64,000 nt of DNA from Eledone cirrhosa. Taxonomy: Eukaryota; Mollusca; Cephalopoda; Octopoda; Eledonidae. The stretch lies in NCBI GenBank assembly GCA_964016885.1, contig OZ024743.1:343435371-343499370 (forward strand), read 5' to 3'. The notes under the pieces were generated by a model, which saw only the letters and a list, made by a program, of their open reading frames with translations, was not told the DNA's origin and searched no databases. Positions 7,215-62,256 of the stretch are shown here, piece after piece; positions within the stretch are counted from its first letter, which is position 1; every line of letters begins with the position of its first letter. Made by a program: the position numbers and the translations under genes.

Positions 7215-10200
7215 CTAGAATAAGAAAAAAAAAATGTTTGTTATATATATTAATTTATATATATATATATATATATACACATACATATGGAAGAGGAAGA
7301 CCTAGAAAAACATGGGATGATGTAGTGAAGGCCAACCGCATTTAGCTGAACATCACAATAGAGATGACTCAGGAATGAGAAAACTGGTGATATTCCATAA
7401 TACAGGGAGCTCACCTTCCCATGTAAGTGGAATGAAACATCACAAGGAAGATGGCTAATCACCTATCTACCTCCCTCTATCCTAAACCTGAAGAAGCAGA
7501 GAAGTGGTACAACACTCAGGTTTCATCTCCCACATGCCAGCGGAACAACTCTTAGGTTCTCACCTGCTAGTATTCCTGACTTCTTCACTCAAACCATGAT
7601 ACCTTCTTTGTGTCTTCGTCATTTTCCCAACTAGGAAAGCCAGGCTCATTACAAAATGACAGAAAGCCCCCACCCACTTGATCCAATGCCACTCCTATGA
7701 TCCCTCCACTACCATCAGCATATATATTTGCTCGCTTTTTGGACCCACAATATGTTAGCCATCACCCACATGCATCAGACTGCCTCCATTACATGACTCC
7801 CACTGGCAGTGTGATGTCTGTACTCCAGCCTGAATCTCCACAAATGCCTCCCCAACAAGATCAAGGACACTTAGTACTGTAATGAAGTAGTGTTGGTTCC
7901 ACAACAAAAAGCACCCAGTCCACTCTGTAATGTGGTAGTGCTGGTGCCACAATGAAAAGCACCTAGTCCACCCTGTAAGGTGATAGATAGTGCTGGAGTC
8001 ACAATAAAATGCTCCCAGTAAACATTGTAAAGTAGATTGCATGAGGAAAGGCATCCAGCCATAGAAACCAAGTCAAAACAAAGCATACTAGCAGGATTTA
8101 ATCACCTGATTGCTCTGGCCTCAAAAGTTTATGTGTGATCCACATCAGTTTAGATGTGGATCACATGTAAACTCAAATATCTGAGGAGATGTTAAAGAAG
8201 AGTCAGGCTTCGGTCACCTTGATCACACACGAGCTGATTGATATTGTAACAATTGTAATATGCAAATAAAGTTTCTACACAAGCTGCAAATCTGACTTCA
8301 ATTAATTTCAGTATATCTACACTCTGAAACATACAGCCAAAAGAACAAAGGTCAAAATTGACCTCAGTGGGATTTGAATTTAGGGCACACAGAGCCAGAA
8401 CAAATACCACCAAGCATTCTATCTGACATTCTAACAACTATACCAGTCTACCACTTGAAAATTCAAATACAGTGATACCTCACAGTATGAGTTTAATTCG
8501 AGTAAATCATTATAGGATTTACTCGTTTTACAAATCAATTTTCCCCATTGAAATTAATATAAATAGTCCGTTCCAGCCCCACATACCCACCAAAAAATAA
8601 TTTTTTACAGGTTTTAAAACAGAAAAGGTGAAGTTACAATGACAATTATAAAAACATAATAAAAGAAAATGCAAAAAAAAAAAGGCATGGGTCAAACCAA
8701 GGTAAATGACACTTATGCAAGATGCCACACAGTAGGATTGAACCTAGAACCTAATGATTGTGAAGCAAACTTCGTAACCATTCAGCTATGCTGCATCCAC
8801 AGCATAATATCAGAGCTGTGATCTCTATTTGGAGAAGTAGTGGCTCTACCTGAAGCATGGGTTAACAAAGGATGCGTTCAGGCCTTAGGTAGAGGGGTCT
8901 GTTCAAAAAATATATTGGTCTTCATTTCATGCTGCAAAAAACTGGCGATGGGCCTGCGACCAATCTTGGAAGGCATGGGATGAACGCACAAAGTTTGTGT
9001 ATCCCGAGACCCCAAAAAGGGTTCTGAAGGGAGAAAACCTTCATAATTGGAATCTGGAACATCACAACCCTTACAGGTAAGGAGCAGGAACTAGTGGAGA
9101 AGGCTAGATGCTACTGGCTAGATATGGTCAGAGTTTCCTCAACAAAGTTCTGTGGCTCTGGTACTATAGATTTGGATGGAGGATGGAAACTTCACTATTC
9201 AGGTGTGGCACCAGAAATGACTGCACAGAGAGGAGAGGGGATACTCACAAGCCCTAGCTGAGACATCCATAAATATACAGAGTATAAGGGGACATAGATC
9301 AATAATTGATTTTGTTATTGTCTCTGATCTCTTCGATTCTGTGCTGGATGTTCATGTTATGAGAGGGACTGAGCTGCCAACTGATCACCATCTAGTTATC
9401 TGCAACTTGAGACTACCTAAAGCCAAAGAAGCCCACATGACTGGCAGGTCCAGATCGACCTACAGGATAAAGTGGGATGCATTGGTGAATAAGGAAGTCA
9501 GGATCAGGTATGCAGCAGATACTATTACATCCAAATTGAAAGAACACCCTGAGCAAACTGAGGATATTGAAACTGAGTGGAGATTGTTCAGATCAGTAAT
9601 TTCTGCTTCAGCTGTTAAATGCTGTAAACAAATGAGGCTTGGTGTGGTGTCAGATGGCAGGAGGACCCCTGGATTCAATCAAAAGGTCAAAGATGCCATT
9701 CGAACAGAGAAGGAGGTCTGGCTTGGAAATAAGTCGTCCTTCTTGCACTTGCCATACATGCAGAATCACAGCAGAGAAGGCATCCAAAGTTAAGACATAG
9801 GAAGACTGTAGGGTTAAGCTGGAATCCAACTTAAGATCAGCAAATAAAGTGTTCTGGCAGAACATCTACAGAATTTATAAAGAAAAATTCAATTATTAAA
9901 TTATTTTATCTAGCATATTATTTGGTGTTGAATAAAGGAAAGGAGCTGATCCATTGCTGATACCATCTACCACTTACAACTCTTGACAGAAGCACCACTG
10001 CAAGATTTGGACTGGGAGTGTATAGAGCCTGAATAGATACTGTAATGCATCCTATCCAGCTCTTAACAATTCCACAAATCCACCATCCCTATTTATTTAT
10101 TGGCTTTAAAAGGATGAAAGGCAAAGTTGACCTTTGTAGGATTTAAACTCTGAGTATAGAGAGCTGGAACTAATATAAAGGCATTTAATCTAACCCTCTA

Positions 10201-13200
10201 AGAACTCTGCCAGTTCATCATATAAATAAAATTCCAGATAAAATAGATATTGACTCTTTTGTTACCATATTTCTAATGAAAGACACTGCATATAACTTGC
10301 AAATAATTTTGAAAATATCAAGAATTTGCAAAGATTTAGTAATACAACTTACTTCCTAATTATTAAGATGTTTGCTACATAAATGTTCTTAATTTTTTAG
10401 ATAAGTACACATACTTTAAAACAAGCAGTTTTGTATTGTAATACCAGGAAAAGCTTGAGCTAGTTTGGTATCTAAAAGGTTAAATATGTACCAGACCACT
10501 AACATATTTGTGGCCTGGTACCAATAACGTGGGATATTAATGTAATTGAACCTTTTGATACCAAACTGCTAGAATCCACTCCTGGTTCTATGACGAAAAA
10601 CAAGTTTTAAAGGGTTCATATTCAAATATAAGTCTTCATCATTTTTTTGTAAAAACATTTAGTTATGTTCTAAACACCAACATAATAACAATAAAGTTAG
10701 TTGTATTACCAAATCCCTCCAATTTTTTTATTTATTATTCTTAAAATTAATTGAAAATCATAGACAATATATCTCATTAGAAATGTGTTAATGAAAGGGT
10801 TAAATGCTTCATGCAAAATTAACCCTTTAGCATTCACATTAATTTGTCAAATATCATGTTTATCTATTCACATTATTTTCAGTTAATCATACTCAAGAGG
10901 GTTATCAATCATATTTGATTGTAATTTTCTTAATTTTCTATGTGCAGACTTGAAATTTTGTCAATAGATGTTTAAATATCAATAATTTACAATTATATAT
11001 TTTTACCTGAATTTTTTTTTTGTTAAATTTGACTTTTATGGGCAGGTGAATTTAATTAACAGGTGTAAAAGTAATGACTTAATGGATAAACACAAAAAAT
11101 TAAACTTTATCTGCCTTACCTGTAAGATGTGTTACAAAAAATATCCAACACAGACCTAGATGTTGACTTCCAACAATTTTATCACTTTTCCGAACAGGTG
11201 AATTAATTTAAAATGCAGGTATAAGTACAAGGTTTTATTTAGTCTTTCTCTACATTCCATGCAAATATTTTCATTGAAAAAATGGATAATACCTTTCACC
11301 AGTCAAAATAATATTGGCAATGTACTGAGTAGATCTATATAACAGAATGTGCCCAATATATAAGTTCATTAACAGGTGTGACAGGTGAATGCAGGTGTTT
11401 TTGTATATAATGTGTTCCAATATATTTTTTTAAATATTTTTTTCAATATTGTCAGGCAATATTTCTATCGGGAAATTGGCCAAAACACCCTTTACACTTT
11501 GCAAAAAGAACACATAAATGAGGTTTCAATTTGATAACCTTTATCTGTATTTTAAATACTTTGTTTTTGGCATAATACTTGATATATAAGGGTCACTAAA
11601 CCATATAATCAGTGCTCCAGTCATTCCAACGTTAAAAAAACACGTGCTGTTACAAGCTGTTTCATTATATTAAGTGTTAATTTTCACTGTAAAGGCCTAT
11701 CTCGCAGTAACTTCGAATTGATGAGATTTTGATGACGGTATTGTTTATTTTTAGAACGATATTTTAGTGTTGGTGTTGTTGGCCAGATTGGGCTTATATT
11801 AAGTGTTAATTTTCACTGTAAAGGCCTATCTCGCAGTAACTTCGAATTGATGAGATTTTGATGACGGTATTGTTTATTTTTAGAACGATATTTTAGTGTT
11901 GGTGTTGTTGGCCAGATTGGGCTGGTTTGAACAAATAAAGGGGAAATAATTTCGACCGGTTTGGGCCATATTGAAAGCTAAAGGGTAGCACAGACCTTTT
12001 AGGTGAACTGACTTTATTCAGTACTTCCCAAGGAACACAATCAGGACTGTGGCAATACTCTCTAAGATGTTCCAAAGCAATTTTTGTTTCCACTGCCCCT
12101 TGAGTAATATATTCTTCCTCTGTTAAAAACCTGTGTTGTGGTGGGAAAAATTTATACCTAAAAAAAGAAAATAATCAAAAGACAAGATTAAACACATAAT
12201 CACAATCGTTTTTTTGCTTTCTGTTCCTTGCTAGCATTGGTTGGAGACTTCTTGAGGCATTTTTTCTACAACTGGTTGCTTTTCCTAATGCCAACCCATA
12301 CTTTATCATTTTTAAGTATGGTATATATTGCTGATGTTAGTTAAGGTGCTAAACTATGGGACATAGTAATTATGAAGGCCTTTGATAGGGTACCCCGATC
12401 TGTCATCTGGTGGTCCCTAAGGAAGCTAGGTGTTGAGGAATGGCTTGTGAGGACAGTGCAAACTTTGTACAGAGGTACTCTCAGTAAAGTCAGGGTAGGA
12501 ATGGAGTTTAGTGAGGAATTCCAGATACAAGTAGGAGTACATCAGGGCTCGGTCCTCAGCCCGCTCTTGTTCATTATAGTCCTCCAAGCCATAACAGAGG
12601 AGTTTAAGACTGGCTGTCCATGGGAACTTCTCTATGCTGACGATCTGGTTCTTATAGCAGAATCAGTAGAGGAGCTAGAGAAGAAATTCTGGCTATGGAA
12701 ACAGCAGTTGGAAGCAAGAGAACTGAGAGTGAACCTAGCTAAGACAAAAGTGTTGATGAGTAGAAAAGAGGACAAAACCCTGATTCCGTCAGGGAAATGG
12801 CCATGTTCGATATGCAGAAAAGGAACTGGCATAAATTCTATAAAATGCACACAATGCAGATCCTGGGTACACAAGAGATGTAGCGGGATAGCAGGCAAAC
12901 TAACAGGTAGGGAGAAATATGTATGCAGTAGATGTACAGGGAAATTAGACAGTAGAAGTCGCATTGATAGACACATTTTTCAAATGCAGGAGGGCGCTAT
13001 AGAAGTGGTGGATAGCTTCCGGTACCTAGGAGATCAGATTAGCATGGGAGGAGGGTGTTCCGAGGCCATAGTATCTAGAATAAGGACGGGTTGGAAGAAG
13101 TTTAGGGAGCTGCTTCCTCTGTTGACGAAGAAGGGTTTCTCCCTGCGTACGAAAGGCCGGTTGTATGATGCCTGTGTGAGGAGCGCGATGCTGCATGGTA

Positions 13201-16200
13201 GTGAGACATGAGCAGCAACTGCAGAGGATATGCGACGGCTGGAGAGAAATGAGGCAAGCATACTCCGTTGGATGTGCAGTGTAAATGTGCGTGAACGACC
13301 CAGCATAAATGTGTTGAGAGGGATAGAATGTAGTGTACGGGAGAGGAGACTGAGGTGGTATGGACATGTGATGCGCATGGAGGATGACCGATGGGTGAAG
13401 AAGTGCCAGGAAATGCCAGTTGAAGGAAGACGTGGTAGAGGTAGACCACGAAAAACATGGGCGGAGGTGGTGAGAACAGACCTCAGATCATTGAAGCTCA
13501 CGGTGGAGAGATGCTGTGCTGAATAAGACCCGTCCCACCCTTGCAAGCAGGGAAAAGCGGACGTAAAATGATGATGATGATAAAGAAACATTACTGTTTG
13601 CTTTTTAAGCAGTGTAAATATCGAGATACCTGTAGCAACAGAGTCTCTCCCTCTCTCTCTTTCACACACACACATATATACAAAAATATATATTTTATCA
13701 TAGCTGTGAAGCTATACCATTCTTTTATTCTTTGACTTGCTTCAGAGATTAAATTGTGACTATGCTGGGGCACCACCTTGAAGAAATTTAGTTCATCATA
13801 TTGACCCCAATACTTATTTTTTCAAGTCTGGTTCTTATTTTATTGATTTCTTTTCCTTCAAACAAGGACAACACTTTATAGTTAAACACAATTTCACATG
13901 TGCATCAGAAAACCTGATCAGGTTGTCGAGAGCACTACATAGGACAGACCAAAAACAGCCTCCGACAACGTATGACTGTCTACAGATCCGGGAATATAGA
14001 AAGATAGCACTGAGTGAACACATTACAACTTGCGCATCTAATGAATAACCCAATTTTAGAATTTTTCCTATCTACAAATTTAAAGACAACGCTTCTTACA
14101 TCCAGTGCATTAGCAAGGAATCACAATTTATCGCCACATACGAACACCTTCTAAATGCTTCCACTTCAGACTAAACTAAAGCTAGCACACTTTAAAATTA
14201 ACCCTATAGCAATGTATCCTTCTCCAAGATTCCAGCAACCTCTGACAACTATATAATGAAGACCAAGCAACCGTATAGAAACACCCACATCAGCTAGTCC
14301 TGGAGGGCTTCCAAGTAGATAATCGGATAAATGGAAGCATTCAGGTGTCAAACTAAATGCTTTACATTCCCCTGAATCTGGAAGTTTCTGCTGAAGATAG
14401 AATGGGCATTCCAATGGTTCTGAACCCCTTTTTGTGGCAAAATTTTCTCCATTCCCCTAAATCTGAAATTTCTGCTAGGGATGGAATTAGTATTTCAATA
14501 ACTGTGAATCTTCTTTGTGGCAAAAACACAAGGTCAATGTTGATGTTTTTGTCTAAGAAAAAATACCAAGATAGATATTTAACACCCCCCCCCAGTTAAC
14601 TCTAAGGTCACCCAGCCTTTCAAACCAATCCCAGCTGGAACTTGTGCCCACTCCTCAAAGCAGCCAGCCAACACTTCTCCTTCCTCCCCTCCTACTACCT
14701 GTCACAACCAAGCTATAAGCAGAGTAGGATGGACAGAGAAATTACCTATCTTCTCTGAATGAACCTGTATGTGAAAATTAATTTTTCTTCCCCTTTTTAT
14801 TTTCATTTTCTTCATTATTATTATTACTATAAGGGCGGTGGATTGGCAGTATTGGTAGAGGGTCGGATGCCATGTTTTGACGCATAGAGTTACGGCCCTT
14901 GCCATTCTGAGTTCAAATCCCGCCGAGGTAAACTTTGCCTTTCATCCTTACGGGGTCGATAAAATAAAGTACCAGTAATGTACTGGGTAATTGCTGGCCT
15001 TGTGCCAAAAGTAGAAACAATTATTATTATCACTATTTGTACAAATATGCAACTTAACAATATTCTGCATATCCGCAATTGACAATGCATTTAATGCTGA
15101 AAGCGGTATTGTAAATAAATTAATATTTTGATATCTCACTGAAAAAAATCTCTTCAACATTTTCTACTGAAAGAATCTTTTTCTATTCTACTATTTGTTT
15201 TTATATATATCAACTCGTGTGTTACTTTTCTACATTTGATAATTTTATATATATATATAATGTAAGGTTTCAACCAAGAATGCAAATAAATATTACATAG
15301 GAGCCACTCCTAACATTTAAAAAAATGAATTTTATGAACACATAAGCTCGTTTAGAAATGAGATTAAGAAACACTATGTCAGATGCAGAATTCATCTGGG
15401 CTTTACACAATTCAAAGGAAAAGTATGATTTAAGCTGGTCCATTAAAGTAGGGTGAGTGGGAATTTGATTCCCATCAAAGGTTTAGAGATATGTTTGATT
15501 TATAACCCTCTCCTTAACTGGAGATAGGGAAATTATTATATTATGCTTGTAAATATTCTCTAGTCTGGTTTGTGATCCAACTTAGTAAAGCTTATCTCAT
15601 AATTCAGACAGCAGATTCTTTCTAACTCTTAATGCTTTGTTTACTAATATTGGCGTTAGTATTAAACAGACAATTTTTCAGAATATAGGGATAAAATACA
15701 ACTCTCTGATATAGAACTTTACTAGAGCAACACCTTAGGAATAAGAGAAAAAATGTATCCACTGCACCTAGAATAAATTGGCATAATAAGTTAACTCCTC
15801 ACATCATTAAGTGTTTTTTGGCAGTAGTAGTTTGGTACAAGACTGACCTCAACCTATACAATTCTCCCCGCTACTGCCCTAACACCACATTTCTCCATTG
15901 AACTTAGTTATTTTTTCTAATTCTTTTTAAACTTCTTGTCAACTCTAATTTTTTAGACACAAGAATCTAAATAACTTTCTTTTGTCCAAGACTTTCTTGT
16001 CTCCTGATAAAGAAGTGGTGGAGATAATAAATAATTTGACATTAAGACCTGTAGATAGCTCCTCTTTCAAATGTAGATAGTTAAAAAATACCAGGATGAT
16101 AGCTAAGCAGTTTGCATACTAATTTCTTGTCCCTACCTCTTCTATTCATACTTTTCTTTTGTACCTCTCACACTACGTATACTTATCTTCTTATATTCTT

Positions 16201-19200: not shown

Positions 19201-22200
19201 TGGAAGGAAAATGCTCATGACTCTTTTCAGGGCCCTTGAGAAAAGTGTAAGTGGAAAAGTATTTTCAAACCAGAGACCCAGCACAAATGCTTGCAATAGA
19301 GTGGACTATTGCAATGACAGCAAACAGGCAAAAGATTGCGTTAAAATGGGCAACCGATTAAATTTACCACCCAAGTAGGTTACAGTGGGATTTGAACTAA
19401 GAACATGTTTATAACTGTTAATAGAATTGTGTTCATTCTTTAATAACACATGTCTAATAACACATGTCTAAAAGGAAAAAGCTGTTCCTCATATATATGA
19501 CTATGTATATATATAATCATCATCATCGTCATTTAACGTCCATCTTCCATGCTAGCATGGGTTATATATATATATTCCTTCTATGACCCAATCGAGTTGG
19601 ACGAAGGTCACCACTTGTGGAAACAGGAAATGAAGAAGCAAAAATTAGACTAATTGACACACTTTTCAGTTGGTATGTAAATGTATGACAGTGTTACAAC
19701 CATCAAAGACAATCACAAGCAATGTAAATGACTAATTCTGACTACCAAATCTTATGGGTATATGTAGCTTAGTGGTTAATGCACCAAGGTATCAACTAGT
19801 AAGCATAGGTTTGATACCCTCAATGACTACACCCAAATTATTTATATATATGTCATTTCCATTTGCATATATTCCTAGGTTTAGTCTCTCCTGTTACTAC
19901 CTGCCATTACTGTTCATTTTTATTACTCTTTCCAACACTGTCACCATTTCACCACTTCCAATTACTCCCTTTTCTCCTATCATACTCTCATTCCCTTCAC
20001 CCATTTACACTGGTGTTTCTCTCATTGCTCTCTCTTTTCTATGCACTCTTGGCAACAACACCTTGAATGAATGGAGGTAATGTTCAGTAGTGAGTATTAT
20101 TTAGTCTTGTGAGATTCAAGGCAACATTATCCGTGAGTGGATGTAATGTTAAAATACACCCAATGCACTCTATAAAATGGTTGGTAAATGAGAGGAGATA
20201 ACATAGGGTCGAAAAGATCCTCTAGTCTTACTGAGGACATGACAATCTCTCTACTGTTGGTGTCAAAATGTACCCAGTACACTCTGTAAAGCATCAATCC
20301 ATAGAAATCATGGCACAAATGTAACATATGAGTGATATGTGGTCCTCTGATTTGTCTAGGTGGGAAATAATGAATAAGAACCAACTCAAACTATGACTTG
20401 TTCAACCTATGCCAGCTGTTAAACATGTTTTCTTCATTTCATCTTAGATATATCACATACAGACAATCATTCTAAAGGTATTTTCCCTGCTAAAACATGG
20501 ACTAGCCATGCAGTCTCCTTGCCAAACTTCTTCATTTTGCCCTTTCACTTTCATCTCCTCCTTACCAATCCCTTGGCGTTCATTTCTATCTTTAATCACA
20601 TCTTTCTTATTCCATCTACATTAATTTCCATCATTCCTCTCACTCAGTTACTTTCATCCTTCATCAATACATGACCCAGCTATCACATTCCATTTCTCTT
20701 CACAACATTTATCATTGGGTCTATTTCTATCATCCTCTCACTCAGTCACTTTCATTCTTCAATACACGAGCCAGCTATTACATTTAATTTCTCATCACTG
20801 GTTCTATTTCCATAATCCACAGCAAATCATATATGTCCTATCTATTAAAAAAACAAGCACACAAAGATTACATTAATCCTTTATCATTTAAACCGGCTAT
20901 AACTATCCACTCATATATATGTTAAGGTTTTAACAGGATGGTTTTTAGAGTAGATGTATCACCACGAAGAATTGAGGTTAGGCTGTAAGTCTCAGGTTCT
21001 GTTGCTGCTGTGATAATACCTCTGGAAGGAATCCTTCCATATCACATTTAAAGGCATTGCTGTGGTAACAGCATCACAAGACTATACAATGTTTTTATGT
21101 TAGTTATATCGACAACGAGTAACATGATAATAATGTCAACAAGAAGAATGTTCGTGAGATGAAATGTATGTTTATTTGTTGTAGTGAGAAAGAGACAAAG
21201 TTAATCACTAAGTAAATGCTTGTTGAATTGGATAGTTAAGGTTAACAATATAAAGGTTATAAAAGGAATGTGGCATTGTGCCAGGCCCAAGGAAGGCCGG
21301 CAGGCCAAAGTGCAAATCTCACCGTTACATTGTTTGTGTTGGTCCTTCGGCGTTCAAGCAGCAAGAGAATAAGTGATCTTTACATTAGCATGGTCAGGAT
21401 GCAAGAGACAGATTTCTCAAATCAACGCGGCAATTTTTCCCTCAGGGTGCGTAGGGATACATTCTCTTCTACTGGTGCTGATTGGCTGAGCTAAGCCAAA
21501 TCACGCACAGAGAATGTATGTGAGCCCGCGGAATGTAGGTCACTACAAGGTGTTGTTCTCAAAATAAATATCAAAATCTCGTAAATTTGATATAATTGTT
21601 TCTACTTTAGGCACAAGGCCAGCAATTATCCAGTACATTACTGGTACTTTATTTTATCAACCCCGTAAGGATGAAAGGCAAAGTTAACCTCGGCGGGATT
21701 TGAACTCAGACTGTAAAGGGACGTAACTATGCTAGAAAGCATGGCATCCAACCCTCTACCGATACTGCCAATTCACCGCCCGTAAATTTGATATAATGTG
21801 AGATAATTATGTGAGGTAAAAGCCTTTACCGGGAAAATATAATAGTATATATAGAGTAATGTAAATGCAAAAGGGTTAGACAAAATTTTACAAAAAAAAT
21901 CTTTGAAAAGAAAAATAAACCAAGAAAAAATGCTTTACTTACTTTAGACGTTTATATAAACTGTCTATACATTTTGGTCGATTATGAACTACAAGGATGG
22001 CAATGATAACAGCAGCAGAAACTTCCGCAAGTTGAGTTCCATTAAATACTAAAAACAAACCAATAGCTTGTAGAATCCAACATAAAATCTTTTTAGACCG
22101 ATGGTCAGTGACTGGGCCAAATCGATAGGATAAAAAAAATGAGAGCACACCAGTAACTGTTAGGTAGACTAGAAGTGAAATCCAATATTCTTTGGTTAAC

Positions 22201-25200
22201 ATGAAAATATTTTGGTAAAACCAATGAACTGTATAAAGTAATCCAGATAATCCAGAGATAATGAAAGCAGCTGTAACAACTTTCTGAAATAGAAAGTAAA
22301 ACATAAGTATTATACATTGGGGATAGGTGTATATGTAATAAAGAGGCATGGTTGTGGTTAAGGAGTTCGCTTTGCAACCATTTAGCTTCAAGTTCATTCT
22401 CACAGCATGACACCCTGGGCAAATGTCTTTTATAGCAAAAATTGATACATGGAAAACTTTAGAAGCCTGCCATATATATGTATTAGCGAGTATAGTTGTC
22501 AGAAATAATAAAACACTGTTCATAACTTGGTTAAAACAATATGATAATAAAACATTGTTTATAATTTGAATGTAGCACTTTTGCCCTTCACAAGAAGTAT
22601 CATGGGAATTATCCTTTTGATATGTTCAGTGAAAGATGAAAGCGCTAGACTTAAATTATAAGCATGTTTTATTATTATATTTTTTATCCAAGTATTAAAT
22701 TACTTCTTCTGACAATTATTCTTTATTTTGTACACTACCAAAAATACTAAAAAACTCATTAAAATAGTTGGTGTTAGGAAGGGCTTCATGTTTTATTATT
22801 ATATTTTTTATCCAAGTATTAAACAATATTTTATTACTTATTTTGACAATTATTCTTTATTTTGTACACTACCAAAAATACTAAAAAACTCATTAAAATA
22901 GTTGGTGTTAGGAAGGGCTTCCAGCTGTAAAAACTATGCCAAAAAGATTGAGAGGTGCCGTCAATCATGACACGGCAACCTCTCTAGTGCTGGTGCCCTG
23001 AAAAATGCATCTAATACACCTTGTTGTAAGATGGTTGGTGATAGGAAAGGCATCTAACAGTAGAAATCATGCCAAAAAAAAAGGGATGAAAGGACACTTC
23101 GGTTGAGTCAAGGGCATGACAACCTCTTTAGTGTTGCTGACAATAAAATGCATCCAGTAGATTCAGTAAAGTGGTTAGTGATAGAAAGGGTTTCTAGCTG
23201 TAGAAAACTCGCCTAATGAGAGGATTCTTCAGCTGTGTCAAAGACTTCTCTCATTCTGGTGCCATGATAAAATGCACTCAGTGCACTCTGTAGAGAGTGT
23301 GAATGCATGTAATCAAGATGGGGGTCCCCAACCCATCTGAGAGATCTGTCCTACCCTTGCTAGCAGAAAAAATAGATGTTAAATCATGATACATATATAC
23401 ATATACATGTGTATGTCCCCGTGTCTGCGTTTACGTTCCATAACTTAGTGGTTTGATGATAGGAGATCAATTAAAATTAATAACCGGTGCACTCTGCTAG
23501 AGAGCGAGAACATATATGAGATGCGGCTCCTGTTCCATCTGAGGGATTAAGTACTGACCTGGTCTGATCAACCCATCCAACCCATGCTAGCAGGGATAAT
23601 TGGCAGTAAACGATGACGATGTGTGTGTGTGTATGTGTGCATGTCTATTTCTGTGTACCTTAACACTGACAATGTAAAAACAAGTGGTAACATTTATTTC
23701 TATCCAGCAGCTTTGTAGTATGACAAACATCAGTGTTATCCACTGCACTAAAAAATAGAAAATGTTGTCATTAGAAAAGGTATCTGAATGTAAAACATTA
23801 CCTAAAAAAAAAGTCTTATCTAATCCCATGCATAGAACATCAGACAGGTTGGGTGATGATGAAGATAAATATATGATCATCTTTGTAAATATTATGGTGT
23901 TAATGATTTACTACCAGTAGCTCTTACCTTTGAAATCATCCGACTAACAAGGAACAATATAATCATTACAGAAAATATTACACCAAGGAGAGTTCCCATC
24001 AAGTAATGGAATGAAGAATTTCTGTCAAAATGGAAGATTTCAGAATATAATTGGTTTAAATTAAAAAAATATAAACATAGACTTGAATATATCTATGATA
24101 TGTGGCTGTGTGGTTAAGAAGTGCTTTAAAGTTCAGTTTCAGTGTCTAACACCATGGTCAAGTGTCTCTTACTATTTAGCTTCAGGCTGACCAATGCCTT
24201 ATGAGTGAATTTGGTAGATGGAAAACTGAGGAGGCCCATCGTATATATATATAACAATATATATATATATATAAAACCATCTTTATTTTATATAGAATGA
24301 CTTTTACAGGACTAAAACTATTTCATTTGAATAAAATCATCATTTCTAAATAAAATAAAGATGCCTATACTCTACCAACGTATCATGTACCTTTTTAAAC
24401 TATGGTCACTTCTCAATACCCATTGGGAATCAACCCATAATTATATATATACATATATATAAGATAGATATTATGACTTACAGTCAAGCTTAACTCTTTA
24501 GCATTTAAACTGGCCAGAATTCTCTCACCTCTTTCTGTTCAAACTGGCTGCTGATACTAATGTTAAGGTATTGTTCCCAAAATAAATAATATAAAAATCT
24601 CATCGATTCGATATTATGTGAGGTAAAGCCTTTACCATGAAAATATAATAGTAAATGTAGAGTAATGTAAATGCTAAAGAGTGAACTAATTTTACTTGTG
24701 ACCATAATGCTCTTTGTTAAAGGTATATATGTTAGTAAATTCCATTTATTTTTCAGTCCAAAAATCTGGCATCTTGTTAAGTGAAAGGATGTCAATATGA
24801 AATATAGGAGCAGTAAGGTTAGTGTGCATAAATTTTGACCAACAGACTACAAGTTAAAACCTGGCCATAGTCATTGTATTAAACCAGAGGTTTCCAAACT
24901 GTTGTGACACTTTAGTTGTCACCAATAATCTGTAGGTGTATCACAAAATTAAGTCAAATCGGATAAATCGGATTAATTTTTATGGATATTTGGCCGATAA
25001 GTATTTTTGAGATCTTACAGTTAAATATGCAACTCATGACACATGATTTAATATTTAATTGTTTATTTATTAATTTTGTGTCACTTACAAAACTTAATGT
25101 ATCCTAAGAAAGTTTAATTTTAAATGAATTGATAAGTTTATGAAAAAATTTATCCAAATTTGAAAATTACCTGCATTTATAATGTAAAGCTGCCTATAAT

Positions 25201-28200: not shown

Positions 28201-31200
28201 GCCTGTGTTGTGCAGGAGAGGTGTATCAAGGGTGAGGTTGGGGGTGGGGAGGAGCAAGTAAGCAAGTTCAACGTGGTTGAGGTGCATGGGATATGTAGCT
28301 GGTAAGGACAGGGTATTAAGATGAGGAGGGGTGAAGAGAAGATTGGTGCAGACTAATGTCCTCTATATGTTTGTTTCCTTCTATGGACATGGGAAGGGGG
28401 CAAGGCAGGTCTTCTGTAGTACAACATAATACCAGGGATCTTCATCCTGCATCATCTCCTTTGTGAGGTTTAATTGCGCAAAGTCAGCTTTTATTACTTC
28501 ATCCAAAGCTTTCCTAGGTCTTCCTCTTCCATAGTTTCCCTCAACATTGAATGCCCTGCACCTTTTTATACAGCTGTCCTCCACCATATACATCATATTT
28601 CCATATCAATGCAGTTTCTAATTCATCGATAATACTAACTAATTTGATATATTCAGCAGAACATGCTAGCCTCATTTTACCAGCATTGAAAAATAGATGC
28701 TAAATGATGATAATGATACCATTCCCTGCATTCAATGTCCACATCTCACTATCATGCAGCATTGATCTTCATTTGTAGGCATCATGATTCTGCAGAGACA
28801 TAGTGACAGTCACTGAGGAAGGAGAGAACAAATGAATGGATGGAAGCTGAAGATAGAGTCAAAGTAAAACATACTTGTACATTAAATTCTTCACTGAACT
28901 TGCTGCCAACCCCAAACTTACAGCAACCTCATACAGTGGCTTACACAGCTCTCACATACCATTCATATATATTATTTTCGGAAGGGTCTATCTTACTACA
29001 GAACCTGTAACTGTGACAAAGCCCTTCTCTTGATTAAGAATAGCAAAAGTTAGGGCATTAGTTCTTTGGTAAAAATTTCTCTTGTAGCTGTCTCAGTAAG
29101 TTTAATTTAAAATATATATATATATAAAATTTAAGCCACAATCACACTTCATATACTGTATATATATATATATTAAATTTAAGCCCAAATCACACTTTAT
29201 ATATATTAAATTTAAGCCCAAATCACACTTTATATATATTAAATTTAAGCCCAAATCACACTTTATATATATTAAATTTAAGCCCAAACCACACTATATA
29301 TTTAAAGCAAAAAAAAAATAATAAAGAAATCTAAGGAACTGTCAACACTCTAATTAAGGTGGGCTTGTTTTTTCCATCAGCCAAAAAGCAAAGTTAGAAA
29401 TTTTCAGGTGTTCACACATACCTTTTATTCTCAGTTGTATAGAAAAATTAGATGCAGTAGTGATGGCAACACATGTAGAATTAAAAGGCTGCAAAGAGAT
29501 TTCTTTGCTTTGGAACAATTTGTTTCGTATCATATTGAGATCAAATGTAGAAACACTTGCTTCAGTTTCCATAGCATTTGCACCAAAGGTAACTGTATAG
29601 TCCTCATTGATGTTCAATTTTAACTAAAAATAAAAGTAAAGGACTCATTAGTTAAGGTAATCATCATCATTTTACGTCCGCTTTTCCCTGCTTGCAAGGG
29701 TGGGACGGGAACTGATTCTGGTTTGATTTCTACAGCTGAATGCTCTTCCTAACACCAACCTCATTTACAGTGAGTGCTGGGTGCTTTTTTTTCCGTGGCG
29801 CCTACATGTCCACTTTACAGTGTGGGCTGGGTGCATTTGCAGTGGAATGATAGGGAACCCAGTCCTATCATCTCATTTCTACAGCTGAGTAAACTGGAGC
29901 AATGTGAAATAAAGTGTCTTGCTCAAGGAAACAACACATCGCCTGCCCGGTCTGAGAATTGAACTCACAACCTTTCGATTGCAAGGCCAATACTCTAACC
30001 ACTAAGCCATGTGCCTCCATGTTTTGAATATTTGTAACCTTTATACAATCTAAATCAAAAGGAGATAATGTGTAGGCAGGGTTGTGTAGTTAAGAGGTTT
30101 GCTTCACAACCACATAGTTTTGGGTTCAACCCCACTGCACGGCACCTGAGACAACTGCCTTCAATATATTTGACCAATACCCTATGAAAGAAACTTTGTC
30201 TGGTAGAAACTGTGCAGGAGCTCTTTGTCTATATATTCATATGCACACACACAAGTTTGTGTGTTTCCCTGCTTACTTGTTCCATAACTTAGTAGTTCAA
30301 CAAATGGAGATCGATAAAACAAGTACCAGATTAGAAAAGGATACAAAAAAGAACAGGGATTGATCTGATCAACTAAATTCCTTAAAGGTAGTGCCCAAGC
30401 ATAGCTACAGTAATTAGACTGTAGCCAGTAAAAGAATTAGTTGAACACTGTAGCATTAACTCTTAACATCCTATAATGATTTATCAGAAAACATCTAAAA
30501 ACAGGTTTGTTAATTCAAATGTTTAGTGTCTTTACTAGTGGACAGATCATTGTGAAAATTTGCAATAAACTGAAGACTTTAATTTTTTATATGAAGTCGT
30601 AGTTCCATTCTGTATATTTCAAGAATGTCTAACTAGTGTAGTATAAGGATGTTGAGAGTTAACTCTTAACACCCTGTACCACACCAAACTGTATTAGCAA
30701 AACATTCTTGAAAAGTACAAAAGCATGATTGCATCACATTAAACATTAAAGTCTTTACTCTAATATGGAAAATGTTCACAATGATGTAGTGATGATGTTA
30801 TAAACATTTGAATTAACAAATGCTTTTGTAGATATTTTCTGCTAAAGGTCATTACAGTAGTGATGTTTGTTTATGCTCTTCATAAACAATATCCCACAGT
30901 TTAGCAGTTTGACAAACATCAGCAATATACTCAAATTTTATAATATGAAGGACATCCAGCCATACAACAGCTTCAAAAATTCTCATCCATCCTATGCCAG
31001 CATAGAAAACTGGATATAAGGAAAACAACTATGATGATGTTCATCGTCTAACGTCCATTTCCATGCTAGCATGGGTAGAACGGGCTGTCCTTTTGTAAGA
31101 GATCAAGTTGGAGGACTGTCTTTCACTCACACAGAACTGATTTTGGCTTGGTTTCTATGGATGGATGCCCTTCTTAATACCAACCACATTTACAATGTGT

Positions 31201-34200
31201 ACTGGGCGCTTTTTGTCGTGACACCTACACGATCACTTTACAGTGTGGGCTGGGCGCTTGTAATATACTGGCTATACCAAATTCTCTGCACACATCATGA
31301 CTATCTTGTGTTTTCAAACACAAAGCAACTAGCCATTTATTATCCAAAGTGTTTTTTTCTTAAGATGGCCCGGTATGATTTGAAGTAAGTTGGGCTGCCA
31401 TTTAAAGTATGAACAACTTCATAAAAACTCAAAATTCTGTACATTATCTAGGTTGTGAGTTCTAATTTGCCAAAATCTACTTTTCATTTCATGCATGTCT
31501 TGTAAGACCATGAATCTGTACCTGGAAAATTCCTCTCCAAAGTCCGCAGGAAATTTTTTGGGGAAGGACCAATACTTCCCCCCCTTGATAAGGGAAAAGC
31601 AAAGGCTGATCAGGATGCAATAACAATTCCACTAATGCACAGCCCTGAACAGGTACTTTATTGACCCTAAAAGTACGAAAGGCATTGTTGATCTCGCTGG
31701 AATTTGAATTTAGTGTGCAAACAGATAGAACAAATACCACAGGGCATTTATTCTAATATCATAACAACTCTGCCACCTTTTCCATGTGTACAAGCTCAAT
31801 AAAATAACTCTCAAATTACACCATGTAACAAAAAAATTTTTTTCTCTGTTCCTGGCTTGTAATCACTTTTTTTGTGTTGTTTAGGTCCCAAATAAATAAA
31901 AAAAGTGCTATTAAACAGTTAAAAGTTTGGGTTTGTATAAATACTAAGCTATTCACTAGAATTATTTGTATGCTGGATTTTACGTTGTATGTAAGTTTAA
32001 TTTGCTGATGTTAAATGATTTTTTTTTATATATGTTTCAGGTTAAATTAAAATTATAAAATAAAGAATAATACCTAAAGAAAATTATAAAAGTGCAATAA
32101 AGTATAAAATTGTTAAAAAGTGGATTAAAGAGATTTATTGATACTGGGGTACCAGAAAAAGTTCCTCACTTCCCAAACCAAAAAGAAGTCAATGACTTGG
32201 TCAGGGATATGGGTCTGACCAAGTCCAATGTAGAGCTATTCGTCTCCAGGATGAAGCAGTGGAACTTGGTCAAGGAGGAAGTGCAGGTGACTAGTCAGAG
32301 AAGTCGACACGAACCTTTCTCAGGCTTTTACACTCTTAGGGATGGCCTCTGCTTCTGCCATGACGGGCTTGGACTGTTTGACGTTATTGGGGTGTCGTTT
32401 GTGCCCAAGGAGTGGCGGCTATTTATAGACAGCTCCACCACATGTTTGAAGGCTGTCCTCCTCCACAATGGAAACAAGTTCCCGACACTGCCCCTAGCTC
32501 ATTCAGTCTGCCTGAAGGAAGATTACTACAGTGTGAAAGTCCTCTTGGAAGCTCTGCAATACAAACAGTACAATTGGGAAATCATTGGAACCTTCAAGAT
32601 GGTGGCTTTCCTGCTTGGACGCCAAGGAGGCTTTATCAAATTCCAATGCTTCCTCTGCCTTTGGGACAGCAGAGCCACCTCTGACCACTACAAAAGAAAG
32701 AACTGGGAGCAGCGAACAGAATTTGTAGTTGGGACCTGGAACGTCATGTGGGAGCTACTGGTTGATCCCAGGATTGTGCTCATGCCACCACTGCACATTA
32801 AGTTGGGGTTGATGAAGCAGTTTGTGAAGGCTCTCAACCAAGAATCAGCCGCTTTTAAGTACCTTCTTGAGTTCATCCCCAAGTTATCTGAGGCCAAAAT
32901 CAAAGGTGAAATTTTTGTTGGACCACAGATAAAGAAGGTGTTTGAGTCTACCGAGTTCTCCAATAAGCTCAATAGGATTGAGAGAACAGCATGGAACTGT
33001 TTCAAGGCAGTTGTTAAGAGCTTCCTGAGCAACTACAGAGCTGAAAACTACCAGCAACTGGTGCAGGATCTGATAAAGGCTTTTGGCGCCATGGGATGCA
33101 GGATGTTGCTTAAACTCCATATGCTGGACGCTCACCTGGAAAAATTCAAGGACAATATGGGCGCCTACTCAGAAGAACAAGGCGAACGATTCCACCAAGA
33201 TGTGAAAGAGATAGAGTGGAGGTACCAGGGCCACTACAATGAAAAAATGATGGGGGACTATATCTGTAGGCTAGTGTGGGAATGCGACCTGGACTACAAC
33301 CGCAAATCCAGTCATTTCTGACATGTATAAGTTGCTTTATAAGTGTTATTTGTTTTTACTTGTTTGCTTTTGATAAGCTTGTGTAATAAAATAAATATAT
33401 ACTCTGTTGATTTAATTATATGAACTGATAAATTTTTTTTAAATGTGTTTTTTGTTGAAAAATATGAAAATTTCGAAATATCAAACTCCTGACCACAAAC
33501 CCAAACTTCTGATTAAATAATAGTGTTTTTTTAATAATAATGGGATATAATAAACCAGTAATTGACACTTAGAACCGGGGAACAAAAAATGTTACACAGT
33601 GTTATCAGATGACAATACAGAGAAGACAGTAAAGAAAAACAACTTACAACGGGTGATAACCAGAGTTTATATATATTTCGCTTCTCTCCTGGATAACAAA
33701 ATATCCAAGTTTTCTCTTGTGACAAATTCTCCACATTTTGGATGGAAATAAAAGGCTTTGTGGGATCTATTACAGAACCTAGAAAACAATGAGTAAAAGT
33801 TGATAATTTAACCTTTGGTATTTCCATATAATTTTTAAAATTATCAAGAATTTGGAAGGATTTAATAACATAAAAGTCTGTCTTAAGCCAGAAGGCTTGT
33901 TAGGCCAGTACTTATCCTGGTTTTATGTCGTGAAGCAACTGAGAGTACAATACTTCCTCCTGGACATGACGCCAGTCTATCGCAGGGTTAAAGCCCCAGC
34001 TATTGCTGGTACTCATTTTCAGCTGAGTATACTGGAGCAACATCAAATGAAGTGTTTTGCTCACGAACACAACATGCAACCCGGCCCAGGAATTGAACCC
34101 ACGACATTATGATTGTAAGTCCAACACCCTTACAACTAGGCCATGCGCCTCCAGTTTGATAATATAAAATTATGATGGAAGATTTATATATAGCCTTGAA

Positions 34201-38179: not shown

Positions 38180-39835
38180 TTAATAATAATAATAATAATG
38201 AAATTATTGTGTAAAGTGCTCAGGTGCGCTACAACTCGTCAAAGGTGTATGTATAGTACATAGAATAATACAAAAATGTCAGGGAAGTACATGTGTGTAT
38301 GTGTTAGCTGTAGTGTTAGCGGATCTCGGGAAGCATGGTGCCTTAAAGGATGCAGTGTCTCGACAGCCAACAACTGATGCAGGTAGTTTGTTCCATGCTT
38401 CAGCAACTCTGAGCGTGAAAAAATGTTTCCGAAAGTCATGGGAACTGTGGTGTTTTCTTACTTTGTGGGCATGTCCACGTGTGTTAGACACATGGAAATC
38501 AAAAAGGTACTCAGGGTTGTTGTTGGCAACATGGTTAACAATTTTGTGGGTGTTTACCAAGTCAGTTGCCAGGCGTCGGAGCTTCAATGTATCCATGCCC
38601 AGGGAAGCAAGGCGCTCAGAGTATGGTAGATGCCTGATGGAGGGTATTCGCTTGGTTGCACATCTCTGAACAGTTTCCAGGAGGTCAATGTTCTGAGCAA
38701 GATAGGGGTTCCAGACTGGTGATGCAAATTCTAAGTGTGCTCGCACCATAGCCATGAACAGCCTTAAATAGATATCTGGAGAGCGGCTGACAAAGGTCTT
38801 GCTGAGTGGTGCTAACACCCTCTTGACAATTTTAGAGACGTGCTTCGTCCAACGCAAATCGCTGCTGACCGTAATGCCCAGGTCATGTTCACAAGAAGAC
38901 TTCTTGATATTAGTGCTGTGGAGGGAGTATGTGGACGCTGGGTTTTTACTCCCAAAATGCATGGTGGTGCACTTGTCCACAGCTAGCTTGAGTTGCCAGT
39001 CTGAGATCCATTGTTGCATTGTATCCAGGTCAGACTGCAAGCAAGATCTATAGTGTTCAGGATCTGTCCTTTTTATCTCAAGGTACAGCTTGATGTCGTC
39101 TGCGTACTTTAGTACTGTGGCATTCTTTAAGTTGGCATCTATGTCATTAATATATGCCACAAACAAAAGGGGACCAAGAACAGATCCCTGTGGTACACCA
39201 GATGACATCTCATATGGTGAGGAATGCTGTCCCAGAACCGTGACTACCTCTCTTCGACTGAGAATGAAGGACTTGACACCCATTGCAGAGAGTTTTGCCA
39301 TAAGTCTTTTGTGTGGCACAGAATTGAAGGCTTTCGCAAAGTCAAGGTAAACAACATCCACCCATGAGCCGCCATCAGTGATCCGGGTGATGTCCTCAAG
39401 AAACTCTATAAGTTGATCACAGCAGCTGGAGTTGGGGATAAATCCAAATTGCGAGGGCCGGATAAGACTGTGAGAGCTCCAGAAGTTCCAAAGTGTTTCT
39501 CTGACACAGGATTCCATCAGTTTGGCGATGCAACTAGTAAGACTGACTGGACGATAGTTCACAGGTGATGTGCGGTCACCCTTTTTGAAAAGAGGAATGA
39601 CACTGGCAGTTTTCCACTGTTCTGGAGTAGCACTGTTGTTCAGACAGAATTGGAAGAAGCGTGATAACTGGTGCAGAAGGGAGTACCCACCATGTTTAAG
39701 AAGCAGGTACGTAACACCATCAAGACCAGGAGAGGCATGGTTGCGTTTATTTTTTAGGTGACGTCGCAGCATTGCAGGTGTAAATTCCATGGTTGTAATA
39801 GAGTCCGGTGTCATAGGTAGTGGAGATGGTACACT
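38180..39835 (-). mobile_element. 5'-truncated LINE (CR1/Jockey-like) with open RT
   Basis: The 3' end is an (ATT)n run at 38184-38202 preceded by a 3' UTR. The 5' end lies at about 39835, where OR-type SINE sequence abuts. No endonuclease domain is present. The reading frame is uninterrupted, so the insertion is probably recent. It stands about 320 bp upstream of the NEMP ATG in the same orientation. Confidence 0.85.
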
Positions 39836-39853
39836 CTGGCACAAGGCCAGCAA
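38279..39853 (-). CDS. LINE reverse transcriptase, 524 codons, open
   Basis: Complete palm: NHASPGLDGVTYLLLKHGG, WKTASVIPLFKKGD, NYRPVSLTSCIAKLMES, VVYLDFAKAFNSVPH (motif A Asp), SSGVPQGSVLGPLLF (motif B) and LKYADDIKLYLE (catalytic YADD near residue 249). The thumb and C-terminal domain follow (HLPYSERLASLGM; FFTLRVAEAWNKLPASVV). The first few residues (MLALCQS) come from adjoining SINE sequence, so no natural start is present and the protein is unlikely to be made as in the intact element. The family resembles CR1/Jockey-superfamily RTs common in molluscs. Confidence 0.9.
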   Translation of the reverse strand: MLALCQSVPSPLPMTPDSITTMEFTPAMLRRHLKNKRNHASPGLDGVTYLLLKHGGYSLLHQLSRFFQFCLNNSATPEQWKTASVIPLFKKGDRTSPVNYRPVSLTSCIAKLMESCVRETLWNFWSSHSLIRPSQFGFIPNSSCCDQLIEFLEDITRITDGGSWVDVVYLDFAKAFNSVPHKRLMAKLSAMGVKSFILSRREVVTVLGQHSSPYEMSSGVPQGSVLGPLLFVAYINDIDANLKNATVLKYADDIKLYLEIKRTDPEHYRSCLQSDLDTMQQWISDWQLKLAVDKCTTMHFGSKNPASTYSLHSTNIKKSSCEHDLGITVSSDLRWTKHVSKIVKRVLAPLSKTFVSRSPDIYLRLFMAMVRAHLEFASPVWNPYLAQNIDLLETVQRCATKRIPSIRHLPYSERLASLGMDTLKLRRLATDLVNTHKIVNHVANNNPEYLFDFHVSNTRGHAHKVRKHHSSHDFRKHFFTLRVAEAWNKLPASVVGCRDTASFKAPCFPRSANTTANTYTHVLP

Positions 39854-56700: not shown

Positions 56701-59700
56701 CTGACTTCCAATTCCACTAAAGTTGATAATATAAAGTGCCCATGAAATACTGAAGGCAGTTTCATTGACTATAAATTTGAGGCCTTGTGCTAATATAAGA
56801 AATAATAATAATTATTATATGTGCTGTGATTGGTAGAATCATTAGAGCATTGGACAAAATGCTTTGTGGTATTTGTTTTGGGTTCAAATCTCGCTGAGGT
56901 TATTTTTACCTGTTCTCCTTCAGAATTTGATAAAATGAAATACCAGTTAAGTACCGAGGATGGTTTAATCGACTTCAAAAAAAAAAAAAAAAAAAAAGAA
57001 AAGAATACTTGTATTGTGCCTAAATCAAACATTGTGGCCAATAAATGAAATCATTATTATTATTATTATTATTATTATAACTAGCAGAAAAAACCACCCT
57101 TCGGGTGGTTTTCTGTTATCATGTGTAGTGTGCATATTGATATTATACGCAAGTATATATGCATGTAGATATGATACATCAAATAAAATCGTAATTGACA
57201 ATATACACAAATTGAACGAAGACTGTGTTACACTCTCTTATGTAATCAGTAATGTAATTCATGATACATTAAAAAAAGACATTATATATAAACTGCATTA
57301 GGAGAAAATTAGCGACGGAAATATATGAATGTTTATTTAAGCGATCGCTAACTGGAAGTGTTGACATTTGAACATTTTAAAGAAGTGAACCTTAAAATAA
57401 GGAACAAAATTATTTATATTTAATCAAGAATAACGAAATTTAGTAGATAAATTATGTAATATTCATTCATTATTTATTCAAAGTAATCCAACTTATTTTA
57501 CAAACGGGATAAAAAAATATATTCAGGATGCAGTCCCGCACTCCTTACTTTATTATAGTTTAGTTAATAATAATAATAAGGGCAATGGATTAGCAGTATC
57601 GGTGGAACATAAGACAACATGCTTTGCAGCATATAGTTATGGCCTATTACATTTTGAGTTTAAATCTCATTGAGGTTGTTTTACCTTTCATCCATATGGT
57701 GTCAATAAATAATAAAGTACCAGCAAAACACTATTGTCAATTTAATCAACTTTCTCCTTCCCTTCAAATTGCTGGCCTTGTGCCAAAACGTAGAAACAAT
57801 TATTAGAGACAAAGTGTCATAATATGTAGAGCATTCAACAAAATACCTAGTATTTAATTACATTCTGCATTCAGATGCTGATCATCCTTCTCACCATTTT
57901 ACATGTGCTTTTCCGTGTTTGCATGGGTTGGACAGGTCTTCTCCAGCACAGCTTCCCTCCACTTGTTTCATTCTTTCATCATTTCCTCTGTGAGGTTCAA
58001 AATTTTGAGATCAGCTCTTACCACTTTTGTTATCTATATGCATTTTGTGACCATACCAGCAAAACCTTCTCTCTTGTACACTGCAACTGATTCCTCTTAT
58101 GCCCAGTTTATCCCTCAGCTCATCCGTGATACATCGTGGTTGAATTTACTTTTCTTCTTTCCAAGGTTTGAAAAAAAAAAGTACCAATCAAGTTAATAAT
58201 TCCTCTTCATGCTGCAGGTCCTCAAACTTTAGCTGTTGTAACTAACATACTGAAGTGAAATATGAAAGCTGTTTTTCGATGAGGTATTACTTGGTGTGCC
58301 ATAATGGTATCAGTTCGATTTTACTTGGTTTATTATCAATGTTTCCATATGTTGAGTCTACACTCAATAGGTACAGGCATGACTGTGTTGTTTTAGAGGT
58401 TCACTTTACAACTACGTGATTTCAAGTTTGATCCCACTACATGGCACCTTGCACATGTCTTCTACTATAGCTTCAGGCTAACCAATGCTGTGTGAGTGAA
58501 CAGAAACTGTATGGAAGCCCATAATACACATATATGTATATATATGTATGTCTCTGCTTTGCAGTTGATGCTGCTTGTATAGGTTGTAATGTTTGTTTAT
58601 GTCCTACATTATCAATATGTTCCACAGTTCAGAAGTATGATTTTGAAGATTAGTAGCTTACTTGAAAACAAGTAAGGGTTGGTGACAATAAAACTGCTGC
58701 AAAGATGTCTTGTTCAATTCATGTCAGGATGGAAAAGCAGACATAAAATGAAACAATATTTTGTTCATTAACTCTTAATGTCTTGTATTGCATGAAACTG
58801 CATTGGTAAAGGCATTCTTGAAAAATGTATAAAACAGCTGACTGCATCACATTAGAAATTAAAGTCTTTACTCTAATATTACAAATTTTCGCAATCATCT
58901 GTCAAGTAGTGAAGACACTATAAACATTTGAATAGACAGTCCTATTTTTAGATATTCTCTGCTGAATCATTACAGAATGTTAAGAGTTAATGTAAATAAA
59001 ATAATTTGTTTAACCCTTTTGATACCAAACTGATTGAAACTGACCCCTATTCTATGATATATAGCTATTGATTTTAATGTATTTATATTTATCAAGAAAC
59101 CTTTCATTAGAACATTATGTAAGAACCTTTGTAAGAAACGGCGGTGAATTGGCAGTATCGGTAGAGGGTCGGACACCATGCTTTGACGCATAGAGTTTCG
59201 GCCCTTGCTATTCTGAGTTCAAATCCCGCCGAGGTTAACTTTGCCTTTCATCCTTACGGGGTCGATAAAATAAAGTACCAGTATTGCACTGGCACTGGGG
59301 AATTGTTGGCCTTGTGCCAAAAGTAGAAACAATTATGTAAGGCACATGGCTTAGTGGTTAGAGCATTGGCTTTGCAATCAAAAGGTTGTGAGTTCAATTC
59401 TCAGACCGGGTGATGTGTTGTTTCCTTGAGCAAGACACTTTATTTCACATTGCTCCAGTTTACTCAGCTGTAGAAATGAGATGATAGGGACTGGGGTCCC
59501 TATCATTCCACTGTAGAGTGGTTGTGGAGGTGCCACGGCAAAAAAGCACGCAGCACTCACTGTAAATGAGGTTGGTGTTAGGAAGGGCATCCAACTGTAG
59601 AAATCAAGCCGGAATCAGTTCCCGTCCCACCCTTGCAAGCAGGGAAAAGCGGACGTAAAATGAAATGATGATGATGAAATGATGAAGAACCTTTATAAGT

Positions 59701-60970: not shown

Positions 60971-62256
60971 CAAGCATTGGCTGATAAGTTCATAGGCTGA
61001 CAAAGATACTATTATGAAATGTGACCAAATGAGGTTTATTTGTCAACATAGTCCCCCTTGTGGTCTGTTGCACTTCTTCCATTGGTGTTGCAGTGTTTGG
61101 ATCCCATTTGTGAAGAAGCTTTGATCCTGTTGGTAAAAAAGTCATCAACAGCAGATATGTCACTCTCACTGCGATACTGGTTCCTAGCCAAGTGCTTTTT
61201 CATGTTGGAGAACAGATAATAGTCACATGGATCCAAATTAAGAGAATAGGGAGGGTGATCAACTAGTTCAAAGCCACAGGCATACACAGCAACCATTGAA
61301 TCCAAAGACTTGTGTGCTGGAGCACTGTCCTGATGAAACAAGAACCCTTTCATCAGTTTCCCTGGGTGTTTGGTTTTGATAGCTTTTCGTAACTGCTTCA
61401 ACAAGCTGCCATAGTAATCTCCATTGATGGTATGGCCCTTTTGAAGATGGTCAATAAACAATGCTTTTTGCATCTAAAAAAACTGAGGCCATCACCTTCA
61501 CTGCATGTGAAATGACTATAACAGTCTTTGGAGCAGGTGAAGAGGGATTTTCCACTGCATGGATTGTATCTTTGTCTCTTGCACAAAGTGATAAGCCCAA
61601 TATTCATCCTGGATTAGGAAACATTCAAGGAAACCAGCTGGATCTGCCTTAAACGATGTCAAATTGTCTCGTGATGTGATCAGCCTGGTGCGCTTTTGAT
61701 CAGGTGTTAGAAGTCATGGTTCCCATCAAGCTTAAATTTTCATCATGTCAAGTTCATTGTGCAGAATATTCTCAACTTTCTCATGGGATATGCTAATAGT
61801 ATTGGTTATTTGATTTATAGTCAATCGCCTGTCATCTATCACCATGTGGTGAACACGATCAATGCTTTCTTCAGTGGTGGCAGTTGTAGGATGTCTAGAC
61901 ATTGGGTCATCTTCAAGACTCTCCCTTCCCCTCCTAAATTCAACTGCCCACATTTGCACTGTTGATAAAGCTGGAGTGTCATTCCCTAATGTAGTAGCCA
62001 TGTCAGCATGAATGTCCTTGGAGGCTAAAGCCTTTTTCTGCAGGTACTTGATAACACCACGGTGCCAAATTTTGTCCATTTTCAAGAGAAGTCGCTACTC
62101 GTTACTTTTGAAGTCTTCTTTGAACAGCAAAATGTCAGTTTACTTGGAAAGAAACAATGCAGTTATTAAGGAAAGTTGAAATTAATGCACGCAAGATTTC
62201 ACAGCTCTAGCATTACTCCTTCATAGTCAGCCTATGAACTTATCAGCCCACCTTCA
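60971..62256 (-). mobile_element. Mariner-type transposon, 1286 bp, both ends present
   Basis: A 23-bp terminal repeat core beginning GGCTGATAAGTTCATAGG lies at 60979-61001 and inverted at 62226-62248, identical on both sides. The outer 8 bp differ. TA flanks both ends (60969-60970 and 62257-62258). The size is that of a complete mariner. Confidence 0.88.
61036..62085 (-). pseudogene. Mariner transposase, broken in the middle
   Basis: The N-terminal part, frame 62085-61732, starts at an ATG and has the two helix-turn-helix regions (VIKYLQKKALASKDIHADM, LSTVQMWAVEFRRGR, SIDRVHHMVIDDRRLTINQI). A frameshift follows near 61735. The C-terminal part, frame 61473-61036, has LFHQDSAPAHKS (second catalytic Asp) and LVDHPPYSLNLDPCDYYLFS (third Asp). 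The first catalytic Asp region between them is shifted and interrupted by stops. Not active as it stands. Confidence 0.85.

Follow-up and report, generated by a model that had tools for sequence, protein, structure and literature searches.

The DNA transposons Chapaev and Chapaev3 have 5'-CAC/GTG-3' ends, duplicate a TWA target between an A and a T, and encode transposases with C(2)C, LH and H(4)H motifs (PMC4079192). The same source reports Merrow in Acipenser. According to its Table 1, Merrow in lamprey encodes 78+484 amino acids (aa), and full-length copies of Garfield encode 78+478 or 77+477 aa. Chapaev3 is placed within a wider Transib superfamily and carries an N-terminal Chapa zinc finger (PMC4411706); elsewhere the wider group is named CMCT, with Chapaev3 as a sublineage of Chapaev (PMC12730594). 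Here we analyzed a stretch of 64,000 nucleotides, called the window, from Eledone cirrhosa (contig OZ024743.1, positions 343,435,371 to 343,499,370). It contains an element of 1783 base pairs (bp) at 31819-33601 with CAC...GTG termini and a long open reading frame. We conclude with high confidence that this element belongs to the Chapaev3 lineage of cut-and-paste DNA transposons (CMC/CMCT group) and that the copy is a defective one, derived by deletion.

Ends of the element and family assignment

The initial annotation had recognized a transposon with terminal inverted repeats and matching ends at these positions, and both the sequence and a shuffle test bear this out. The two element ends were aligned and compared with 1000 dinucleotide-preserving shuffles. 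The local score was 41 against a shuffle maximum of 39, and the global score was 57 against 49. None of the 1000 shuffles attained the observed scores; the inverted repeats are real and go beyond chance similarity. Both repeats have the same word at their inner edge, as annotated, but this word (AAGTTTGGGTTTGT) is a 14-mer and not a 13-mer. Pairs of shuffled 250-bp ends also shared words of at least 14 bases (9/1000) or at least 13 bases (25/1000); therefore the ordered alignment of the repeats is stronger evidence than the 14-mer. The 12-mer end, with up to two mismatches, has 32 matches in the window against 22.0 expected; 32 or more occurred in 1 of 100 shuffles. The only mismatch-free matches are the two element ends. 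Taken alone, the 12-mer end is weak evidence.

A TTA on each side of the element, also noted before, was confirmed. It occurs as A-TTA before the element and TTA-T after it (the five preceding bases are AATTA and the five following TTATC), in agreement with the TWA duplication of Chapaev3, although the duplication is known from this one site. The CAC..GTG ends of Chapaev3 are present, and the protein contains all three motifs of the family (Table 1). The annotation had suggested the CACTA/CMC group, which our data support, and had left the protein family unassigned; ends, flanks and the C(2)C/LH/H(4)H motifs now assign it to Chapaev3. Two features of the family are lacking. The presumed DDE triad is incomplete, with Thr at residue 161, and the region of the Chapa zinc finger is absent. 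We read both as defects of this copy; the family itself has the triad. The annotation had also proposed a comparison with DDE/RNase H folds; the predicted fold matched RAG1 and the Transib transposase, and the predicted structure includes a Transib/RAG-like catalytic region.

A protein database search, in which 4090 candidates were scored, returned 2462 relatives at an expectation value (E) ≤0.001; the best 120 of these were listed. The closest among these 120, P0001, has 85% identity across 84% of the frame. P0002-P0004, presumably Merrow-type, are 66-67% identical across 97% of the frame, and the presumed Garfield-type proteins P0042 (moth) and P0059 (wasp) are 57-61% identical to it. The named sources of the relatives include sucker fish, sturgeon, characins, mantis shrimp, shrimp, moth, wasp, tunicate, frog and mosquito; the listed proteins are called 'uncharacterized' or 'hypothetical' protein or 'unnamed protein product'. 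Among the best 120, P0003 has 562 aa, eight proteins have 484 aa and P0041 has 478 aa; P0004 is from Acipenser. From these lengths and taxa we infer that P0003, the 484-aa relatives, P0041 and P0004 are Merrow- and Garfield-type proteins.

Next to these similarities we consider a tree of 41 rows, comprising the window protein and 40 of the 120 listed relatives without labelled Chapaev3 references. In it the window protein groups with P0001 (100/100), and the stem of this pair measures 0.61 changes per column; P0002-P0004 are next nearest by path (0.94-0.97), and the deeper placement is drawn open. Because it sits with P0001 on this 0.61 branch, the window element probably represents a separate family within Chapaev3.

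No Pfam family scored above its cut-off in the five members scanned (the window frame and four relatives). Matches of the window frame to Death (16.2 of 22.6 bits) and ColG_sub (13.3 of 27.8) were below cut-off and were judged to be chance; a zf-AD match below its cut-off occurred in two of the four full-length relatives scanned. The best sequence matches in the PDB had E-values of 3.2 (single protein) and 0.077 (profile), and Rfam at gathering thresholds gave no match in the window. None of the pattern matches in viral contigs (39) and genome contigs (10) was confirmed as a relative.

The open frame and its probable decay

The single gene of 403 codons without stops was confirmed; none of 2000 single-base shuffles was open. 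The annotation had further taken the protein to be intact, which does not hold. The listed start codon is TTG, with in-frame stops directly upstream, and the first in-frame ATG is at residue 34 (32209) and has a purine at -3. Relative to full-length relatives (~560 aa), ~168 N-terminal residues are absent. In tblastn searches with eight relatives the match to the frame started at relative residues 160-177 in seven and at residue 132 in P0001, the N-terminal part of which differs from that of the others. The same searches found no significant N-terminal piece elsewhere in the window; the remaining matches had E ≥0.58, and therefore the missing part is unrecognizable there.

The catalytic residues were examined in an alignment of the window protein with 63 of the 120 listed relatives (64 rows). 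Asp161 is present in 62 of the 63 relatives, including P0001, while the window protein has Thr. A predicted helix begins at residue 355. With its N-terminal region absent and its presumed second catalytic Asp replaced, the protein cannot be called intact.

There are 115 sites at which the other rows are uniform to 95% or more; the window protein differs at 9 of 115, the third highest fraction of the 64 rows (median 1.7%) after P0119 and P0108. P0001 has one of these nine departures as well, L44F. Taking eight or nine of them as neutral, the divergence comes to 3.2-3.9%; ~1.7-2.1 stops would then be expected, and the probability of no stop is 0.12-0.18. This arithmetic ignores indels and assumes neutrality; therefore it shows sufficiency and is not proof. 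The annotation had seen in the open frame a sign of recent activity or selection. This is unsupported, because frames of this kind stay open often enough when they diverge neutrally by a few per cent; selection is not required as its cause. That a decaying copy still has an open frame is therefore unremarkable.

These observations fit the following scheme, which draws on family and fold. A full-length transposase of ~560 aa would combine an N-terminal zinc-finger-like region with a RAG1/Transib-type RNase H domain with D-D-E. It would bind the CAC-ended inverted repeats, excise the element and insert it at A-TWA-T, duplicating TWA. The 5' coding part of the present copy would have been deleted before or after insertion, and the open frame is what decay has so far left of the transposase gene. 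The TTA on both sides suggests that the copy was once mobilized. Most likely it cannot mobilize itself, because ~168 N-terminal residues are missing and Thr occupies the position of the second presumed catalytic Asp; transposition would then occur only with the transposase of a full-length relative.

Table 1. Features of the element; positions refer to the window.
Feature	Position	Strand	Remarks
Left TTA, presumed target-site duplication	31816..31818		A before; TWA rule of Chapaev3 (PMC4079192)
Left end CACCATGTAACA	31819-31830	+	
Left terminal inverted repeat, imperfect	31819..31936	+	~118 bp; starts CACCATG, finishes AAGTTTGGGTTTGT; alignment and shuffles
Putative 3' splice-site-like CAG	32038..32040	+	after pyrimidine-rich stretch (14/18)
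Open frame, 403 codons	32110..33321	+	~last 390 residues of a Chapaev3-type transposase; homology from ~32146
First presumed catalytic Asp, residue 107 (FIDSS)	32428..32430	+	Asp in 64/64 rows
Codon 161, Thr for presumed second catalytic Asp	32590..32592	+	Asp 62, Asn 1, Thr 1 of 64 rows
C(2)C motif, residues 180 and 183	32647..32658	+	Cys 63/64 and 64/64
LH motif, residues 228-229	32791..32796	+	Leu-His 64/64
H(4)H motif, residues 337 and 342	33118..33135	+	His 63/64 and 64/64
EEQGE, residues 355-359	33172..33186	+	holds presumed catalytic Glu (which one inferred)
Two overlapping AATAAA words, possible polyadenylation signal	33385..33395	+	start 64 and 69 bp past the stop codon
Right terminal inverted repeat	33495..33601	-	~107 bp; starts CACTGTG on this strand; alignment
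Right end CACTGTGTAACA	33590-33601	-	
Right TTA, presumed target-site duplication	33602..33604		T after

Alternative explanations

Truncated P-element proteins are known as kept repressors, and the shortened, catalytically changed protein might likewise be retained as a repressor or be otherwise domesticated; the element would still be a Chapaev3 derivative. Such a role is consistent with the open 403-codon frame, with the kept C(2)C, LH and H(4)H motifs and predicted fold, and with the ATG at residue 34 and the AATAAA past the stop. It is nevertheless very unlikely in view of the departures at conserved sites (9/115), the absent N-terminal zinc-finger-like region and the 12-18% of cases in which neutral decay of the implied size leaves the frame open. 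That the locus specifically yields a shortened, catalytically inactive Chapaev3 protein which the host keeps to regulate or repress related transposons is, in our judgement, highly improbable. An intact, active element would likewise have the ends, the TTA flanks and the bulk of the catalytic domain that are present here, and its protein could begin at an unusual start codon or in an exon further upstream, joined at the splice-site-like CAG (Table 1). However, in-frame stops lie between this CAG and the frame, the tblastn searches detected no significant N-terminal piece in the window, and the presumed catalytic Asp is Thr; this is the least probable of the explanations considered.

A canonical CACTA/EnSpm element or a Transib, and not Chapaev3, would be compatible with the CAC ends, which suit all three. 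The heptamer consensus is CACWRTG; the right end fits it at 7/7 positions and the left at 6/7, and in structure the window protein matches RAG1 and Transib best. The 3-bp duplications also fit EnSpm (PMC12730594). On the other hand, the 5-bp duplications of Transib and RAG (PMC7204232) are absent at the element, and the A-TWA-T rule, the motifs and the protein lengths favour Chapaev3, so that we give this assignment very little credence.

Several points weigh against the assignment to a defective Chapaev3 element. The window contains no second copy (blastn, E≤0.01); the element's sole match is itself, and similarity to other window repeats is confined to its flanks. Agreement of the 3-bp flanks is expected by chance in ~1/64 of cases. 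The link to Chapaev3 is an indirect one, made through the published hallmarks, protein lengths and taxa. The length agreement with Merrow and Garfield was noticed post hoc and is weak by itself; many of the listed relatives have 551-572 aa, and the Met start of the 484-aa frames is a gene-finder choice. The roles of Asp161 as second catalytic residue and of a particular Glu as third are presumed, and one relative likewise lacks Asp at 161 (Asn). Since P0119 and P0108 depart even more from conserved sites, the departure count alone is no proof of decay.

Taking these points into account, we regard the element as a new, degenerate member of Chapaev3 in the CMC group, nearest to the presumed Merrow-type proteins. 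The copy itself is ordinary and not surprising. With it Chapaev3 gains one more copy, probably from a family of its own. Annotation of these proteins would benefit from a profile and a name, because there are 2462 relatives, none of the five members scanned reached a Pfam cut-off, and the listed names are uninformative.

Surroundings of the element

A repeat at 31621-31775, SINE-like (short interspersed nuclear element) by eye, lies close to the element on its left and has partial copies of 66-72% similarity, e.g., at 8339-8445, 10064-10212 and 62906-63064. To the right, a repeat at 34012-34101 resembles pieces at 59389-59480, 2561-2648 and 29872-29936 (76-82%). Further away, an open reading frame at 21939-22523 (-) contains a NEMP-family stretch (Pfam PF10225, E 1.9e-26, residues 71-190) and probably represents one or more host-gene exons. 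A frame resembling a long interspersed nuclear element lies at 12372-13211 (+), with a reverse-transcriptase domain followed by a PHD finger (Pfam PF00078, PF00628). A 524-aa frame at 38279-39853 (-) also has a reverse-transcriptase domain; its best match is 61% identical over 94%, another 85% over 41%, and no cephalopod is named among the 120 matches listed for it. A partial mariner-like transposase is located at 61036-61473 (-), with Pfam Transposase_1 above and DDE_3 below cut-off.

Comparison with known systems

A literature search gave no match for Chapaev3 together with mollusc, and a wider mollusc search gave unrelated papers only, among the matches listed. A repeat annotation of Octopus vulgaris includes a CACTA-Mirage-Chapaev row (1, 1, 878; figures without headings) in a table of recently active insertions (PMC13282606). 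The excerpt thus reports the group in an octopus and contains nothing to match with the present element. CACTA/EnSpm was compared on ends and flanks only; the element has CACCA/CACTG ends and a TTA on each side.

The predicted fold of the window protein matches RAG1 and the Transib transposase over ~350-360 residues, and the best structural alignments have 12% identity. The CAC ends are heptamer-like, as in RAG1/Transib, whereas the 5-bp duplications of Transib and RAG (PMC7204232) are missing from the flanks. No RAG2-like gene was recognized in the element. RAG1 shares the fold of this transposon group, and Chapaev3 is distantly related to the RAG enzyme of the immune system.

The closest likeness is to the described Chapaev3 families. 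Garfield (silkworm, triatomine bug, a bracovirus and others; 2289-2291 bp in full length) has its hallmarks in common with the element (PMC4079192). Merrow (Repbase Chapaev3-1_PM; lampreys, sturgeon, dragonfly and others) has the CAC..GTG ends, the TWA between A and T and the C(2)C/LH/H(4)H motifs as in the element. Lamprey Merrow, with two exons, measures 2451-2455 bp (PMC4079192), the window element 1783 bp. In contrast to Merrow, the latter has lost ~168 N-terminal residues, and its presumed second catalytic Asp is replaced by Thr.
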